Below, in pieces: positions 57,183 to 64,000 of a DNA stretch of 64,000 nt. The stretch spans positions 1,054,001-1,118,000 of the forward strand of contig NZ_CP160631.1 of assembly GCF_040783975.1 (NCBI RefSeq), written 5' to 3'. Positions within the stretch are counted from its first letter, which is position 1, and each line of letters opens with the position of its first letter. The translations under genes were made by a program, and so were the position numbers. This stretch comes from Pantoea sp. Ep11b. GTDB taxonomy: Bacteria > Pseudomonadota > Gammaproteobacteria > Enterobacterales > Enterobacteriaceae. The notes under the pieces are model-generated. The model did no database searches, had not been told where the DNA came from, and worked only from the letters and a program-made list of their open reading frames with translations.

Positions 57183-57866
57183 CTAACTCAGCGACGCGCC
57201 GCCGCACATCACCAGCTGCTGACCGGTGATCGCCGCCGCCGCCGGAGAGAGCAGGAAATCGACCAGTCCCGCGACCTCCTCCGGCTGAATGTAACGGCCA
57301 ATCGGCGGCAGGCGGGGCGGTGAACTGGCCCGGCCTGGCTGCTGCAGCATCGGCGTTTCGGTGGCACCGGGCGCCACGATGTTTGCCGTGATGCCACGCG
57401 GGGCCAGCTCTGCGGCCCAGCTGCGGACCATGCCGATCATCGCCGACTTGGTCGCCACATACTGACTGCGGCCCGCCGCGCCGCCTGAGGTACGGCTCCC
57501 CAGCAGCACGATCCTGCCGCCCGCCTGCATCCGCGGCGCAAAGTGATTCGCCAGCTGTTCAGCAGCGGCAACATGCAGCTGCCACAGGCGTGCGCTGGCC
57601 TCGCCGTCCAGCTCTCCCAGCGGCGCGGCCTGCATCATGCCTGCTGCGTGGACCACCGCCTGCGGCACCGGCAGTCTCTCCAGTAACGCCTGCAATGCCT
57701 TGCTGTCGCTGATATCGATCTGATGACTCTGCCAGCCGCTTTCCGCCCGGCTGATGGCTGAGCGGCTCAGGCCCACTACCTGCCAGCCTGCTGTGAGCAG
57801 ACGCTCCGCGATCGCCTGGCCGATGCCGGAGCTGGCCCCGGTCACCAGCGCCATCCGCGCGATCAC
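57183..57866 (-). CDS. Short-chain dehydrogenase/reductase (SDR) family protein
   Basis: Classical SDR oxidoreductase of 227 residues using NAD(P). It has the cofactor motif TGASSGIGQAIAE (residues about 9-21), the NNAG-type strand as VVHAAGMM, the catalytic serine in IVLLGSRTS and the YVATK active-site pair Tyr-x3-Lys, followed by APGATETPM. Start is GTG at 57866, overlapping the stop of the BNR gene; an ATG lies four codons later. Last gene of the minus-strand cluster; it probably oxidises or reduces a sugar-acid intermediate. Confidence 0.87.
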   Translation of the reverse strand: MIARMALVTGASSGIGQAIAERLLTAGWQVVGLSRSAISRAESGWQSHQIDISDSKALQALLERLPVPQAVVHAAGMMQAAPLGELDGEASARLWQLHVAAAEQLANHFAPRMQAGGRIVLLGSRTSGGAAGRSQYVATKSAMIGMVRSWAAELAPRGITANIVAPGATETPMLQQPGRASSPPRLPPIGRYIQPEEVAGLVDFLLSPAAAAITGQQLVMCGGASLS

Positions 57867-59065
57867 GCGTCACCGCCCTGCACCCAGGACTCCTCAACGC
57901 GCACATACTTAATCGCCTGACGATACCAGGTGTAGGCGATATGCAGTTCGCCATTTATCCCCTGTTTGATGCTGGGGTAGGAGAATTCACGGTTCAGCTT
58001 CTGCCGGGAGTTATTGGTCATGCAGTAACCGTCGCCCTCATCCAGATTGCGCTGCAGCGGCCAGCTTTTTCCGCCATCCGTGGAGATTGCCAGCGTCATC
58101 GGTGCGCGTGGCGCGCCCCAGAAGGCGGTACGACCGCTCTGCACCACCGGCTCGGCGGCGACCGCCACGTCACCTTCTCCCGCCTCTTCATCATCTTCGA
58201 TCTCGTCATACAGCGACTGCCGCCGTTCGCTGGCCCCTTCTGCGCTCATGGCGTTGAACACCAGCGCCAGATGACCGTTGCGCAGCGTGGTGACCTGAAG
58301 GGAGGAGTTATTGTTGGGCAGCGACAGCGGCTCAGGCGCGCTCCAGCTCTCACCCTGATCAAAGGAGCGGCTCTGATAGATATGGTCGGCCCAGCGGCTG
58401 CGGTAGAGCGCCAGCAGGGAGCCATCCTCCAGCAGCGTGACGTTCATGTGCACGCAGCCGGTGCTGTCAGGCACGCTGACGTCGCGCCAGCTGCGGCCCT
58501 TATCTTCCGAGATTTTCACCGCGCTGACATCATAGCTGCCGACCCATTTCTCTCCGGGCCGCGTCAGGCAGTAAAAGACCGGCAGCAGCCAGTTGCCGTT
58601 AGGCAGTACCACGATCGGCTGACGAATAAAGGTGCCGGGCTTATCGAGCAGGGTGCGGATTTCGCCCCAGCTCTGGCCCAGATCGTGAGACTGGCGATAG
58701 CGGACGATCGCGGTGTCCTGATTGCCCGACTTCTGCGCCGTCCAGAGCAGCCACAGCACCTGGTCAGGATCAAGGAACAGCACCGGGTTCTGTTCTGAAC
58801 GCCCCGGATCCTCAGAGAGTTTCTCTGCGTCACTCCAGCGATCGCTGCCTTTTTTCAGTCGTGAGCACCAGACAGAGATATCGGCGATCCCCTCCTGAGT
58901 GCCGCCAAACCAGACGCAGAGCAGATCGCCATCGGGCAGCGGCAGCAGGTTGGCGGCATGGTTCTGCGGGCAGGAGGAGGGCAGCATCGCAACCTGCTGC
59001 GCGCTATCCTGCGGGTGCGGCGCAAGCTGGCCGGTACGTTCTGCGGTGACGGTTTCCTGAGTCAT
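57863..59065 (-). CDS. Sialidase-fold (BNR/Asp-box) family protein, cytoplasmic
   Basis: Predicted six-bladed beta-propeller of 400 residues. Four Asp boxes (S-x-D-x-G-x-x-W) are visible: SHDLGQSW, SEDKGRSW, SFDQGESW and STDGGKSW. It matches the BNR-containing sialidase-related group, and three arginine-rich strands may bind a carboxylate. No signal peptide is seen, so it is unlikely to act on extracellular sialoglycans; a hydrolase or lyase acting on an imported acidic sugar is more plausible. It lies between the symporter and SDR genes with 1-base and overlapping junctions, so it belongs to the same pathway. True sialidase activity is unproven. Confidence 0.82.
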   Translation of the reverse strand: MTQETVTAERTGQLAPHPQDSAQQVAMLPSSCPQNHAANLLPLPDGDLLCVWFGGTQEGIADISVWCSRLKKGSDRWSDAEKLSEDPGRSEQNPVLFLDPDQVLWLLWTAQKSGNQDTAIVRYRQSHDLGQSWGEIRTLLDKPGTFIRQPIVVLPNGNWLLPVFYCLTRPGEKWVGSYDVSAVKISEDKGRSWRDVSVPDSTGCVHMNVTLLEDGSLLALYRSRWADHIYQSRSFDQGESWSAPEPLSLPNNNSSLQVTTLRNGHLALVFNAMSAEGASERRQSLYDEIEDDEEAGEGDVAVAAEPVVQSGRTAFWGAPRAPMTLAISTDGGKSWPLQRNLDEGDGYCMTNNSRQKLNREFSYPSIKQGINGELHIAYTWYRQAIKYVRVEESWVQGGDA

Positions 59066-59066
59066 A

Positions 59067-60482
59067 TTAGGCTCCACTTTTTTGTGCGTTGTGTTGCGGT
59101 TGAGGCTGAGACTGACGTGACGGGATGCAGCGGTCAATCACCATAATGATGGCCGGCGTAATCAGCGCCACATACATATTGTCGATACCAAAGGGATTGC
59201 CCATCAGGAACCAGACGGAGGTAACCAGACAGGCGCCAATCAGACCCGCATTTGCGCCGCGCGTGCTCTTAAACCATGGCAGATAGAACGCCATGATGGC
59301 GACCACGGTGATCGACAGACGGATCGCGCGGGTAAAGAAGGAGAGCTTCAACACTTCCGGGAAGAACAGGACAAACAGCAGCGGGAAGAAGCCGATAGCG
59401 ATCGAGATCCAGCGCGTGACCTTAAATTCGCGCTCCGGGGTCGGCTTACGATAGGGCACATAGAAATCTTTCACGACCAGCGAGGCGATAGCCAGGGCAA
59501 CCGTGCCGACGCTGACGAAGATCGAGGCCACCAGCGAGGTGGTGACAATCCCGGCCAGCCACGGTGACATATCCTGCAGAAACACCGGCAGCGCATAGAG
59601 GCTTTTAATATCGGGATGAGCAAACTTCGCCGCCACGCCAATCAGCGCCATCGCCAGGCCGATAGGCAGACAGAAAACAAAGGCGACCCAGGTGGCGCGT
59701 TTCGCAGACTTCACATCTTTGGTGGAGGAGATCGCCTGGATCACAAACTGGGTACAGAAGATCGATCCCACGGTGCCAATCAGCCAGGCCACAATGGTGC
59801 TGGCCCCGACATGCCCATCCCATGTCCAGTAGAACGCGGGCATTTTCTCAATCATCGGCGCAACGCCACCGGTCATTTTCAGCGCCACATAGAGAATAAT
59901 CAGGATCCCGGCGTACTTGATGGCGCTGTGCAGCAGCGTCACCCAGGCGACGCCCTTCATGCCGCCAAACGCGAAGTAGAAAGTACTGACCACCGCCGTG
60001 ATAAAGGCCGCCTGGGTCAGATCGATTTTTAACACGGTGGAGATTGCCGCCGCGCCGCTGATGTAGTTACCGACGTTCACCAGCAGCAGCGCATAGATCA
60101 TGATCAGCGAGATAATATTTTTGGTCGAGCTGCCATATTTCTCGGCGATCGCGCCGGAGATCGTGATCTTCCCGGTGTTATAAATGCGTTTGACCAGAAT
60201 CAGGCCAAACAGCGGAAAACCTATCGCCGCGCCAATGACCGACCAGGAGGCGGCGAAGCCATCCTCAAAGGCCGCCTGTGCAGTCCCGATGGTCGATTTT
60301 GCCCCGATATACTCGGACATCAGCATGATGCCGACAATAAAGGCCGGCATCGCGCGCGAGCCTTCCATAAAGTCGCCGCTGGTTTTACTGCGCAGCCGCC
60401 AGGTCAGCCAGGTGGTAAACAGGATATAGGCGACCACCATGCCGACGATGAGCAAGGTGCTTTCAGTTGAAAATGCTTTCAT
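59067..60482 (-). CDS. Sodium:solute symporter (SSS) family transporter
   Basis: Membrane transporter of 471 residues with about thirteen spans. SSS features are the N-terminal ADGF-like region FMEGSRAMPAFIVGIMLMSEYIGAKSTIG, GGMKGVAWVTLLHSAIKYAG and the sodium-site region around VSVGTVALAIASLVVKDFY. Tandem ATGs occur at 60485 and 60482; GAGG spacing favours the second. It ends 1 base before the BNR gene and lies 79 bases after the aldolase gene. The likely cargo is the acid sugar degraded by the neighbours. Confidence 0.88.
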   Translation of the reverse strand: MKAFSTESTLLIVGMVVAYILFTTWLTWRLRSKTSGDFMEGSRAMPAFIVGIMLMSEYIGAKSTIGTAQAAFEDGFAASWSVIGAAIGFPLFGLILVKRIYNTGKITISGAIAEKYGSSTKNIISLIMIYALLLVNVGNYISGAAAISTVLKIDLTQAAFITAVVSTFYFAFGGMKGVAWVTLLHSAIKYAGILIILYVALKMTGGVAPMIEKMPAFYWTWDGHVGASTIVAWLIGTVGSIFCTQFVIQAISSTKDVKSAKRATWVAFVFCLPIGLAMALIGVAAKFAHPDIKSLYALPVFLQDMSPWLAGIVTTSLVASIFVSVGTVALAIASLVVKDFYVPYRKPTPEREFKVTRWISIAIGFFPLLFVLFFPEVLKLSFFTRAIRLSITVVAIMAFYLPWFKSTRGANAGLIGACLVTSVWFLMGNPFGIDNMYVALITPAIIMVIDRCIPSRQSQPQPQHNAQKSGA

Positions 60483-60561
60483 CATGACCTCGATTGTTCT
60501 GGCAGATGGCGGCCCTCAGGCTCGTTCTCATCTGACCGATAGGGTACAAAGGCGATGGACG

Positions 60562-61446
60562 TTATTGCAGGTAGTGGTTCACGATTTGACGAATCTGCTG
60601 CTGCTCTTCGGCGCTGAACTGCACCGCATAGCGACTTTCACCAACCTCAAAGCCCTGCAGGCTGACCGCTTTTTTCACGGCGGCCGGTGAAAAACCGATG
60701 CTGTAGAGCGCGGTACGCAGGCCGGTGACGCTCTCCTGCGCCTGCTGCGAACCGGCGATATCTCCGGCCCTGAAGCGCGCCCAGATCGCGTTAATGGCCG
60801 CCGGGGCCACGTTCGCCAGCCCGGAAATGGAGGCCGGGCAGCCCTCAACGAATCCCTGATGGATCAGTGAATCCGGGCCGTTCAGGACATCGAAGCCTTC
60901 GCAGTCGGCGGTGGCCTGCAGAAATCCGCGCAGGCTCTCATAGCTGCCGGCGGAATCTTTGATGCCGATGATGTTCGGGTGCGCCGCCAGCGTACGCACT
61001 GTGTCGGGCTGCAGGGTGTTGCCGGTGCGCGCCGGGATGTTGTAGAGGAACAGCGGCACCGTCAGTGCATCCGCCACGCGCTGATAGTGGTCAATCAGCT
61101 CCTGCTGTTTCAGCGGAACAAACCACGGCGTGATCGCGGACACCGCATCCACGCCCAGGCGGCCAATCTGCTGGCCGAGCCGGACGGTTTCGCGGGTCGA
61201 AATCTCCCCGATGTGCGCCACCACCGGCACCCGGCCGTTGGCCTCATCGACGCAGGTTGTGGTGACGGCAATTTTCTCCTGCTCGTTCAGGACAAAGAAT
61301 TCGCCGTTGGTGCCGCCGCAGAAGATCCCGTTACCGGCGTTGATCTGCCGTCTGACCTGCTCGCGCTGCGTCACCGGGTCAAAGGCGCCGTCACGGTCAA
61401 AGGTGGTGACGATGGCCGTCAGAATGCCCTCTATTTTCTTTTTCAT
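60562..61446 (-). CDS. DapA/NanA-family pyruvate-type aldolase (dihydrodipicolinate synthase family)
   Basis: Class I Schiff-base lyase of 294 residues with a TIM barrel. It has the catalytic tyrosine in LYNIPARTG (Tyr135), the Schiff-base lysine in IIGIKDSAG (Lys163) and GGTNGEFFVL (Thr46-Asn47) where DapA has a Thr-Thr pair, so it is not the biosynthetic DapA. The family cleaves or condenses 2-oxo acids with aldehydes, usually yielding pyruvate. The ATG at 61446 has AGGTG upstream. It is followed by the symporter and preceded by the alcohol dehydrogenase, suggesting cleavage of a 2-oxo-3-deoxy sugar acid. Confidence 0.88.
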   Translation of the reverse strand: MKKKIEGILTAIVTTFDRDGAFDPVTQREQVRRQINAGNGIFCGGTNGEFFVLNEQEKIAVTTTCVDEANGRVPVVAHIGEISTRETVRLGQQIGRLGVDAVSAITPWFVPLKQQELIDHYQRVADALTVPLFLYNIPARTGNTLQPDTVRTLAAHPNIIGIKDSAGSYESLRGFLQATADCEGFDVLNGPDSLIHQGFVEGCPASISGLANVAPAAINAIWARFRAGDIAGSQQAQESVTGLRTALYSIGFSPAAVKKAVSLQGFEVGESRYAVQFSAEEQQQIRQIVNHYLQ

Positions 61447-61457
61447 AACACACCTCA

Positions 61458-62606
61458 TTACGCCTGGCAGGAAGGAAACAGGGTCAGATAGATGGCACGC
61501 ACATCGTCGGCGTTGACCCTCATCGGCACATTTTTCATCAGACGCTGAACGTCGAGTGCTGCTTCCACCAGGAAGGGCAGGTGATCCGGGCTGATGCCCA
61601 GAGCTTCGAGACTGGCGGGCAGCTGCAGCCGCTCAACCAGCGCGGTGAAGTAGTCCACCAGCGCATGGGATTTCTCATCGTCGCTTAAACGGCTGTCGGC
61701 ATCGGGCAGCAGATCATAGGCCTGCGCAAACTTACTCACCGCGGCCGGGCGGACGAAACGCATGCAGGGCGCCAGCAGAATGGCGTTGGCGACCCCGTGT
61801 GGCAGATGATATTTGCCGCCGAGCGGATAGGAGAGGGCGTGCACCAGATGCGTACCGGCATGGGCGATGGCGGCGCCGCCGTAGTAAGAGGCCCAGAGCA
61901 TCTCCAGACGCGCCTGTAAATTGTCTGGTTCACGCAGGGTGGTTTCGAGACTGGCGAACAGCTTCTTCATGCCGGTCAGTGCGTAGTTGTCGCTGACCGG
62001 ATTGGCGACGTTGGCCGTGAAGCACTCAATCAGATGGCAGAGCGCATCAATCCCGGTTGAAGAGGCGATGTGGGCGGGCATGCTGGTGGTGAGTTCCGGT
62101 ACCAGCGCCACCACATCCGGCAGCATCACCGGAGAGATAATGCCGACTTTGGTCTCCTTCTCCGGGATAGCCAGAATCGCATTGGGCGTGGCTTCAGAAC
62201 CGGTTCCGGCAGTGGTCGGGATCAGTATTGAGCGGGTGCGGCGCTGCGGTTTTTCACCTGCCAGCAGGGCGTCGAGCGACGGCGCGGCCTCGAGGCAGAG
62301 CACAGAGAGCAGCTTCGCCACATCCAGCACGCTGCCTCCGCCGATGCCGATTACCATATCGGCCTGCCGATGAGGAAGCGCGGCCATGATCGCGGCGACA
62401 TCGTGCTGGCTCGGCTCGGGCGGGACGCTGTTGACCACGCTTAACTGCGGAATCCGATCCCGCAGTTGCCCCATTAATGTTTGCACCGCCGGAATCGCCT
62501 CAATGTTTCGATCCGTGACCACCACCGCTGCCGACACCCCCTGCAGCAAATAGCGCATGTCGTTCAGCGCCTGATAACCGCTGATCACCGTGCTGTTAAT
62601 GTTCAT
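61458..62606 (-). CDS. Iron-containing (group III) alcohol dehydrogenase family protein
   Basis: NAD(P)-dependent dehydrogenase of 382 residues. It has the dinucleotide motif IGIGGGSVLDVAK, TTAGTGSEATPNA, and the four metal ligands in the pattern of FucO: Asp and His in GIDALCHLIE, His in HLVHALSYPLGG and His in LPHGVANAILL. It probably reduces the aldehyde released by the neighbouring aldolase, or oxidises a polyol. First gene of the minus-strand cluster, with AGGGG before the ATG, divergent from the kinase. Confidence 0.9.
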   Translation of the reverse strand: MNINSTVISGYQALNDMRYLLQGVSAAVVVTDRNIEAIPAVQTLMGQLRDRIPQLSVVNSVPPEPSQHDVAAIMAALPHRQADMVIGIGGGSVLDVAKLLSVLCLEAAPSLDALLAGEKPQRRTRSILIPTTAGTGSEATPNAILAIPEKETKVGIISPVMLPDVVALVPELTTSMPAHIASSTGIDALCHLIECFTANVANPVSDNYALTGMKKLFASLETTLREPDNLQARLEMLWASYYGGAAIAHAGTHLVHALSYPLGGKYHLPHGVANAILLAPCMRFVRPAAVSKFAQAYDLLPDADSRLSDDEKSHALVDYFTALVERLQLPASLEALGISPDHLPFLVEAALDVQRLMKNVPMRVNADDVRAIYLTLFPSCQA

Positions 62607-62734
62607 TTCATCCCCTCTTTGCGGTTGCGGCGGAGCAAATGATTAATTTTGCTCAGCGCACTGCGAATTAAATCACTCTGTGTGGCTAAATTTATAAGGC
62701 ATATCGATTTCGATTAATTTGAACTTGCTCACAT

Positions 62735-62756
62735 ATAATCAATCATGATTGATTAT
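62735..62756. promoter_or_regulatory. Perfect 22-bp palindrome between the divergent sugar-acid operons
   Basis: Left arm ATAATCAATCA and its exact reverse complement TGATTGATTAT abut without a spacer. TATAAT sequences occur at 62734-62739 and 62754-62759, so a bound repressor would cover likely -10 regions. A further half-like TAATCAA follows at 62757. The regulator is not in the window. Confidence 0.75.
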
Positions 62757-62793
62757 AATCAAATGCAGCCACAGTGGCCTGACAGGAGTGAGG

Positions 62794-64000
62794 ATGGACG
62801 CATCAATGTGGAAAACAGCGGTGCTGGTTATTGCCGATGACTTTACCGGTGCTAACGATGCAGGCAGCGGACTGGCCCAGGCGGGTGCCCGCGTGCAGGT
62901 GCTGTTTGGCCTGGGGACGTCGGTGCCGGATGCGGCGGATGTGCTGGTGATCAGCACCGACAGCCGGGCCGTCAGTGCCGGGCAGGCGGCTGAGCGCGTC
63001 ACGCAGGTGGTGCAGCACCATGCGGCTCAGTTTCAGACGGGCTGGCTGTTTAAAAAGATCGACTCCACGCTGCGCGGCAACGTCGGGGCAGAAACGGCGG
63101 CGGCGCTGCGCGCCAGCGGCAAAACCCTGGCGCTGGTGGCTCCGGCCGTGCCGCGCCTGGGCCGCACTACGCGGCAGGGCAGCGTGTGGGTCGATCAGCG
63201 TCTGCTGACGCAGACCGAATTTGCCAGCGATCCCAAAACCCCGATCCAGAGCGCCCGCGTCCTCGATCAGATGCAGATCGAGGGCGCGGAGATCGATCTC
63301 GCCACGCTGCGCAGCGATCGGCTCGATGCCGTACTGGCCGCGGCGCAGGGCGTGGTGGTGGTGGATGCCGAAAATGAGGCCGATCTGGCGCGGCTGATCG
63401 CGGCGGCGGCGCAACTGCGCGAGAAGCCGCTGCTGGTCGGGGCCGCCGGATTAAGCGATGCGCTGGGCGCTGCACTTTCGCTTCGCCCGGCCCGGCCGGT
63501 GCTGGCGGTGGTGGGGTCGATGAGCGACAGCGCCCAGCAGCAGATCGCCGCCCTGCAGCAGCAGCGGACCGTTGAGATCGTGGAGGTGGACATCGCCGAG
63601 CTGTTTCAGCAGCCCGCCTGGCCGGAACGGGCGCACTGGATCGCGCAGGCGGCCGACGCACTGCGGGCCGGTCGCCATACGGTGATCCGCACCTGCCAGC
63701 ATCGCGATCAGCGCCACGCGATCGATGCGCTCTGCCAGCAGCACAGCCTGACGCGTCAGCAACTGGGCGAGGCGATCTGCCGCTTACTGGGTGAGATGAC
63801 CTTAAGTCTCTGCCGCGCCGCGCTGCCGCATGCGCTCTATCTGTCAGGCGGCGACGTGGCAATTGCTGTCGCACAGGCGCTGGGAGCCAGCGGCTTCAAC
63901 ATTCAGGGTCTGGTGGCGGGCTGTGTGCCGCACGGGGTTCTGCTTAACAGTGAATTTACTCTGCCGGTGATGACCAAAGCGGGTGGCTTTGGTGATGCAA
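62794..64000 (+). CDS. Four-carbon acid sugar kinase (DUF1537 family, DtnK/OtnK-like), truncated by window end
   Basis: Open frame from the ATG at 62794 (AGGAG 5 bases upstream) to the last base without a stop; 402 codons are visible of a family of about 420. It has VIADDFTGANDAG (Asp15-Asp16), the substrate-binding FKKIDSTLRGN (residues 86-96) and the C-terminal nucleotide segment TKAGGFGDA. Characterised members phosphorylate D-threonate, L-threonate or D-erythronate at the 4-hydroxyl; the substrate here cannot be read from sequence. An alternative ATG is at 62806. A PdxA2-type dehydrogenase might follow beyond the window. Confidence 0.9.
   Translation, partial: MDASMWKTAVLVIADDFTGANDAGSGLAQAGARVQVLFGLGTSVPDAADVLVISTDSRAVSAGQAAERVTQVVQHHAAQFQTGWLFKKIDSTLRGNVGAETAAALRASGKTLALVAPAVPRLGRTTRQGSVWVDQRLLTQTEFASDPKTPIQSARVLDQMQIEGAEIDLATLRSDRLDAVLAAAQGVVVVDAENEADLARLIAAAAQLREKPLLVGAAGLSDALGAALSLRPARPVLAVVGSMSDSAQQQIAALQQQRTVEIVEVDIAELFQQPAWPERAHWIAQAADALRAGRHTVIRTCQHRDQRHAIDALCQQHSLTRQQLGEAICRLLGEMTLSLCRAALPHALYLSGGDVAIAVAQALGASGFNIQGLVAGCVPHGVLLNSEFTLPVMTKAGGFGDA

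Follow-up and report, generated by a model that had tools for sequence, protein, structure and literature searches.

What compound is broken down by a gene set in which a DUF1537 kinase stands back to back with an operon for an iron-dependent alcohol dehydrogenase (Fe-ADH), an aldolase of the dihydrodipicolinate synthase (DHDPS) family, a sodium:solute symporter (SSS), a BNR beta-propeller and a short-chain dehydrogenase/reductase (SDR)? The question arises at the end of a 64,000-nt stretch of the genome of Pantoea sp. Ep11b, hereafter the window, in which open reading frames (ORFs) were typed by Pfam. An initial annotation, made from the window alone, had described the six genes as one catabolic unit for an acid sugar; the ORF list and Pfam confirm all six at the positions and strands and in the families it gave, and gene linkage supports a single unit. 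We propose that both strands serve one cyclic seven-carbon (C7) 2-keto-3-deoxy diacid, most likely 3-deoxy-D-lyxo-hept-2-ulosarate (Dha) of pectic rhamnogalacturonan II (RG-II) or a small glycoside of Dha, a proposal that we hold with about even confidence. The more general scheme, in which the aldolase and Fe-ADH make the substrate of the kinase, seems to us probable.

The kinase and its downstream neighbor point to D-threonate. The part of the kinase inside the window passes the D-threonate kinase (DtnK) model NCBIfam NF047819 (506.3 bits, cut-off 450) and fails the model for the 3-oxo-tetronate kinase of the OtnK-OtnC erythronate/threonate pathway, NF043035 (122 bits, cut-off 350). The adjoining gene, pdxA2, encodes a protein that passes NF002891 (667 bits, cut-off 583), and a gene for a DeoR-type regulator comes next, with YgbI as its nearest model (176 bits, below the cut-off of 400). 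The gene set had at first seemed not to match the DtnK-PdxA2 route because the window stops too soon; with pdxA2 just beyond its end, a kinase lacking a matching pathway is ruled out. In a Pectobacterium cluster (L205), the kinase gives an 855-bit alignment, covering all 442 residues, with PDB 4XFM/4XGJ; the depositors named this structure 'uncharacterized protein', and we take it to be the assayed D-threonate kinase. The chemistry of both families is known, and according to the curated models DtnK would phosphorylate the acid at C4 and PdxA2 would oxidise and decarboxylate the product to dihydroxyacetone phosphate and CO2. The kinase had earlier been supposed to act on a four-carbon (C4) acid from another branch; that acid is most simply the product of the Fe-ADH itself. 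In nine loci the kinase is not beside an Fe-ADH, and all of them have another ORF adjacent to the kinase or nearby. A KdgT permease was typed by Pfam beside the kinase in L082, L089 and L092, and the corresponding ORF of L088 shares 75% identity with L082's KdgT, giving a KdgT-type permease in four of the nine; a porin is found in L090, and four are untyped. The aldolase is missing from eight of these nine genomes (E 1e-60), and the genome of L090 (G257) has one elsewhere. On a simple reading, D-threonate would be imported at the loci with KdgT and made inside the cell here. Two loci, of P. ananatis (L132) and G097 (L112), have pdxA2 beside the Fe-ADH with no adjacent kinase listed or found; in G097, a DtnK relative lies on a different contig.

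We then asked how firmly these genes are linked. When 246 genomes of the family were searched with four cluster proteins, the aldolase was found in 35 (E 1e-60), the Fe-ADH in 35 (E 1e-100), DtnK in 60 (E 1e-60) and the BNR protein in 25 (E 1e-30). The aldolase and Fe-ADH genome sets are identical, and DtnK is present in all 35 (hypergeometric 1.4e-26, a value uncorrected for phylogeny that overstates the association because the genomes are related). Moreover, in 31 of the 35 the genes for DtnK and Fe-ADH are divergent, with a short intergenic region between them (the exceptions are G097, G257, G283 and G375, the last with its cluster split over two contigs), so the arrangement is not due to chance. 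Behind the Fe-ADH and aldolase genes, two front ends are found: the BNR set in 24 genomes, with K. pneumoniae and P. ananatis as annotated examples, and, in the other 11, an MFS transporter together with a PGDH-like D-2-hydroxyacid dehydrogenase, as in P. vagans. In BLAST searches against reference proteins, the 24 BNR-set genomes have a YhcH-type protein in 23 cases, the symporter in 22 and an SDR like that of the window in 20. We therefore consider Fe-ADH, aldolase, DtnK and PdxA2 as the core, with entry steps that vary. The one BNR genome outside the 35, G171, has a stated completeness of 49% and carries pieces of the whole cluster in several broken ORFs (L130). Across the whole order, the BNR protein was found in 4 of 148 genomes, too few to use.

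The intergenic regions between DtnK and Fe-ADH share a block of about TGATTATATTCAATCA-n3-TTGATTATATGTGAGCAA. In 21 of the 31 regions the word TTCAATCA or its complement is found, 42 times in all; the remaining 604 kb of the loci have 45 occurrences and Markov copies an average of 1.0, and TTGATTA/TAATCAA is present in 30 of the 31 regions. Since the words were picked after viewing the regions, these counts serve to describe conservation and do not amount to an independent test. In the window, a perfect palindrome adjoins a CRP-like site (Table 1), so labeled for its likeness to the CRP consensus. The block is a putative DeoR and CRP site. Together with the single DeoR-type gene in the same cluster, its conservation suggests common control of both strands: a DeoR-type repressor, probably with CRP, would act from one region. 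The initial annotation had left room for two independently regulated strands, a case that we discard on account of this operator-like block common to both.

The minus-strand enzymes must then be reconciled with a kinase for a C4 acid. If the Fe-ADH makes D-threonate, the aldolase product would be a C4 aldehyde acid and its substrate a C7 2-keto-3-deoxy diacid. The aldolase would form a Schiff base through its lysine and cleave the C3-C4 bond to give pyruvate and 4-oxo-D-threonate (D-threuronate), and the Fe-ADH, a proposed 4-oxo-threonate reductase, would convert the aldehyde to D-threonate. Cleavage to pyruvate and an aldehyde followed by reduction had already been suggested from the window alone, and we retain these two steps as an inference. 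The aldolase scores 174.5 bits with the dapA model (cut-off 206) and 157.7 of 281 and 132.8 of 382 bits with two N-acetylneuraminate lyase models, and it lies below all 7 NCBIfam cut-offs listed. A separate DHDPS gene of the same genome scores 384 bits. With residues numbered as in the DapA of this genome, Thr44, Tyr133, Arg138 and Lys161 are conserved in the aldolase; position 45 is Asn, and position 107 is Phe instead of Tyr. The aldolase is thus no second lysine-pathway DapA, being below the dapA cut-off with Phe at 107, and no NanA, being below the lyase cut-offs. The absence of a fitting model, in a family that is catalytically varied, would also suit a dehydratase or synthase in an operon for some other acid. 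We find this improbable: the positions of the Schiff-base Lys161 and of Tyr133 are kept, though dehydratases share both, and the strict pairing with the Fe-ADH suits an aldehyde product. In DapA, the carboxylate of aspartate semialdehyde, an amino-deoxy analogue of the proposed aldolase product and likewise a C4 aldehyde acid, is bound by Arg138. The arginine is kept in the aldolases of Agrobacterium, Azospirillum (L155), Lucifera and Pectobacterium and is replaced by Lys in L185 and L194 (Burkholderia, Paraburkholderia) and by Val, Met or Phe in those of R. leguminosarum, Roseomonas, L151 and L174. The basic or non-basic residue at this position suggests that two aldolase subfamilies occupy the same slot of the gene set. 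A subfamily unlike that of the protein encoded at 60562-61458 of the window was seen in the same place in L133, L134, L151 and L174.

Which C7 diacid is meant? By Fischer bookkeeping over the 8 C7 stereoisomers, D-threonate arises from the D-lyxo and D-xylo forms only. 3-Deoxy-D-manno-octulosonic acid (Kdo), 3-deoxy-D-glycero-D-galacto-nonulosonic acid (KDN), N-acetylneuraminic acid (Neu5Ac), C6 acids and C7 ulosonates were rejected as sources of D-threonate by reasoning, as cleavage and reduction of these yields no C4 acid (only the C7 ulosarates were computed). The same core chemistry could serve a C7 substrate other than Dha: bacterial polysaccharides might supply a Dha-like acid, a 3-deoxy-heptarate might be oxidised as it enters, or the D-xylo epimer might itself be the substrate. 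In keeping with this, the D-xylo form yields D-threonate likewise, the PGDH-MFS front end hints at a hydroxyl on C2 of the compound that enters, and Rhizobium (128) and Sinorhizobium (78) account for many of the 304 plasmid records with a BNR relative in a sampled collection. However, we know of no common natural D-xylo-heptulosarate, and a partner with a sialidase fold is in line with the known Dha hydrolase. We regard another C7 substrate as rather unlikely, yet the most serious of the competing explanations. The D-lyxo form is Dha, which occurs in plants solely in RG-II according to one passage of PMC12168206, and the text seen of PMC6811678 describes GH143, the known Dha hydrolase, as a sialidase-like propeller. 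That Dha itself is the substrate has, in our judgment, an even chance.

Entry of the substrate would fall to the remaining three minus-strand genes. The symporter, which reaches the cut-off of none of the 9 NCBIfam models listed, probably takes up the substrate; other clusters carry MFS, SLC13, ABC or TTT-type transporter genes, of which the SLC13 and TTT types suit a di- or tricarboxylate. The BNR protein has no evident signal peptide by eye. Its sequence alone gave no PDB match at 0.001 and a profile search gave weak sialidase matches only, one of which, at 0.066 to 5MQR (presumably BT1020), was not used. A structure search with its predicted model returned GH33 sialidases, which indicates a sialidase beta-propeller fold; GH143 was absent among the 50 matches listed per search, which excludes nothing. 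Tyr363 and Arg320 do not vary among 35 sequences; by a fit made by hand to sialidase motifs, they may correspond to the Tyr nucleophile and one of the other Arg residues. The sialidase-fold protein and the SDR may free or prepare the ulosarate, which is the least certain step of the pathway. In most enterobacterial relatives, a YhcH-type protein may then open the ring: the portion seen of PMC8141875 reports that E. coli YhcH opens cyclic Neu5Ac for its aldolase, an activity that would suit clusters with YhcH if their ulosonate is cyclic. Four cluster YhcH-type proteins score 93, 110, 118 and 124 bits; none reaches the 160 bits of the curated anomerase model, and all exceed the general family cut-off.

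A sialidase fold, an aldolase of the DHDPS/N-acetylneuraminate lyase family and YhcH in relatives all resemble sialic acid breakdown, and the minus strand might degrade a larger ulosonic acid (Kdo, KDN or sialic acid), its aldehyde being reduced to a polyol, while the D-threonate genes merely share the regulator. We consider this unlikely. No NanK, NanE or arabinose gene is among the cluster genes typed, the aldolase misses both lyase cut-offs, every aldolase genome of the family has DtnK, and the same kinase and PdxA families recur beside the aldolase in unrelated gene orders.

A genome scan confirmed at least 577 BNR relatives, of which the best 80 were kept as loci and scored for the core families within 8 kb of the BNR gene or to the contig end. 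All four families are present in 39 loci, some in 22 and none in 19; an SDR like that of the window is found in 75. In R. leguminosarum and A. fabrum the same five enzyme families are present but differently arranged, and the transporters there are of the ABC type and the regulators of the GntR type; the enzyme set is also found, re-ordered, in Burkholderia. In S. meliloti L136, aldolase, BNR, Fe-ADH and kinase are present and PdxA was not detected in the locus. The Roseomonas locus L133 has Fe-ADH, BNR and an aldolase of the other type beside a TTT binding protein, with no kinase or PdxA in the stretch. The Firmicute Lucifera butyrica (L188) has in a row the kinase (truncated where the locus ends), PdxA, aldolase, PGDH, MFS, Fe-ADH, SSS, BNR and YhcH. 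The set of E. coli LF82 includes an SLC13 permease, YhcH and a TerC-family gene, and 1043 of 5426 complete E. coli genomes have one place covering at least 80% of Fe-ADH and aldolase. The TerC-family membrane protein gene of LF82 lies between aldolase and BNR (L131 10860-11618). Around the BNR loci, 28 recurrent flanking groups were listed; the 10 that were typed are IclR and GntR regulators, DUF1537 kinase, ABC ATPase, M20 peptidase, caspase-domain, enolase-superfamily, aldehyde dehydrogenase, aconitase and hydantoinase. Thirteen of the 19 core-less loci are SSS-BNR-SDR loci of Bradyrhizobium (L156-L161, L163, L165, L166, L170, L172, L178 and L180), with an enolase-superfamily gene near the BNR gene of L157 and an M20 peptidase gene near that of L163.

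Several observations weigh against the proposed pathway. In 4 of 4 HMMER alignments (4yw1, 4yz1, 9eob and 4xe9), all weak stretches of 23-25 bits, Arg222 of the BNR protein lies opposite Arg and the invariant His206 opposite a Glu that we take to be the catalytic one of the sialidase Tyr-Glu pair; with His in its place, hydrolysis of the ordinary sialidase kind is doubtful. Nor does the proposed pathway explain what the SDR does. The window's operon lacks the YhcH gene that the other 23 of the 24 BNR-type clusters of the family have, and the only YhcH relative in its genome (36%) is encoded elsewhere. The 19 loci with none of the core families, 17 of which have symporter and SDR, and P. piersonii, with SSS-BNR-YhcH-SDR and no aldolase or Fe-ADH in the stretch shown, suggest that the BNR protein and the SDR have a further use as well or work with genes located farther away. 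The PGDH-MFS pair in place of BNR in 11 of the 35 genomes suggests that the imported compound varies. As for the core enzymes, the aldolase has lost Tyr107 of DapA, and R. leguminosarum and Roseomonas use the aldolase subfamily without the Arg. Outside Enterobacterales, where the kinases may share the D-threonate substrate, they are about 30% identical to that of the window; the one tested, the partial L188 kinase, scores 111 bits against the D-threonate cut-off of 450. By BLAST, a kinase above 90 bits is found in 13 of the 80 BNR loci, and in 49 only at a low threshold. Finally, no RG-II enzyme or pectinase is among the 10 typed of the 28 flanking groups.

The layout of the locus is given in Table 1. 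The tight packing of the minus strand noted at first is confirmed: the GTG start of the SDR gene overlaps the BNR stop (57863-57866), one base separates the symporter stop from the BNR ATG, and the gap between aldolase and symporter is 76 or 79 bases, depending on the Met chosen. The aldolase start is probably the ATG at 61446 (MKKKIEG). The DtnK ORF extends 50 bases beyond the window, and in the same genome (L004) pdxA2 and the regulator gene are followed by speD and speE, both on the opposite strand. The genes yacL and speD are immediate neighbors in E. coli K-12, and here the whole gene set sits between them, which implies insertion here or loss in K-12; the LF82 cluster is located between glnS and nagE.

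Table 1. Coordinates of the gene set and its intergenic elements (window positions unless L004 is given)
Feature	Position	Strand	Remarks
SDR oxidoreductase	57183..57866	-	Last gene of minus-strand operon; YVATK motif
Beta-propeller, predicted sialidase fold (GH33-like), BNR_2	57863..59065	-	
Sodium:solute symporter (SSS)	59067..60485	-	Pfam SSF
DHDPS-family putative class I aldolase	60562..61458	-	Pfam DHDPS, 212 bits
Fe-dependent alcohol dehydrogenase (Fe-ADH)	61458..62606	-	First gene of minus-strand operon; Pfam ADH_Fe_C, Fe-ADH
Intergenic region common to both strands	62607..62793	.	
CRP-like TGTGA-N6-TCAAA	62718-62733	-	Adjoins palindrome
24-bp perfect palindrome TATAATCAATCATGATTGATTATA	62734-62757		Intergenic region
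D-threonate kinase DtnK (DUF1537)	~62794..64000, on to stop at 64050	+	
pdxA2 (ORF)	L004:8019-9023		Beyond window; start codon not settled
DeoR-type regulator	L004:9030-9791		Beyond window

A search of the open-access literature found no published substrate for the gene set, no breakdown route for Dha, no paper joining heptulosaric acid with D-threonate and nothing linking LF82 with threonate. The same genes, whose earlier characterization for a named substrate the initial annotation had considered, are thus in print in the searchable literature for E. coli without one. This E. coli version is region GR 6 of strain BEN2908; the text seen of PMC12928451 proposes no substrate for it, notes an S. 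meliloti relative and links the kinase and PdxA2 to pyridoxal phosphate synthesis. Such a role, in pyridoxal phosphate salvage or 4-hydroxythreonine detoxification, could also draw on the DUF1537 kinase STM0162, which acts on 4-hydroxythreonine (in the part seen of PMC10971088). It appears very improbable here, as it leaves the aldolase, Fe-ADH, transporter and sialidase-fold protein unexplained and as kinase and PdxA2 match the D-threonate models. It is about evenly balanced whether we are dealing with the missing Dha catabolic pathway, in which a C7 ulosarate aldolase and a threuronate reductase would feed the D-threonate route in Alpha-, Beta- and Gammaproteobacteria, in Firmicutes and in about one fifth of complete E. 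coli genomes. If so, it would assign a breakdown route to the pectin sugar Dha and provide an intracellular source of D-threonate, and it would explain why, in many bacteria associated with plants or the gut, D-threonate kinases stand beside sialidase-like proteins and aldolases. It would also correct the 'exo-alpha-sialidase' labels on the BNR protein family and name two enzymes, each testable with one substrate.

Among known systems, the sialic acid route combines NanA, NanT and NanK with YhcH. The gene set resembles it in the pyruvate aldolase family, in the YhcH of its relatives and in the sialidase-fold partner, and differs in an aldolase below the N-acetylneuraminate lyase cut-offs and a kinase for a C4 acid. 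The D-threonate pathway DtnK-PdxA2, reportedly described by Zhang et al. in 2016, likewise has kinase, dehydrogenase and DeoR-type regulator in a row, the first two passing curated models here; however, the divergent Fe-ADH-aldolase-transporter operon here stands in place of the KdgT-type permease found in four of the nine loci whose kinase is not beside an Fe-ADH. With the GH143 Dha hydrolase of Bacteroides thetaiotaomicron, the BNR protein would share a sialidase-like propeller and the proposed sugar, but GH143 is five-bladed and keeps the Tyr-Glu pair, as stated in the text seen of PMC6811678, whereas the BNR model matches GH33 and has His for Glu. Another close counterpart is the GR 6 region, for which the accessible part of PMC12928451 lists a CitT-like transporter, an EbgC/NanQ-like protein, a COG4692 sialidase-like protein, DapA-like, Fe-ADH, DtnK-like, PdxA2-like and GlpR-like genes; by that description, the CitT-like transporter and the YhcH-type gene are replaced in the window by an SSS symporter and an SDR.

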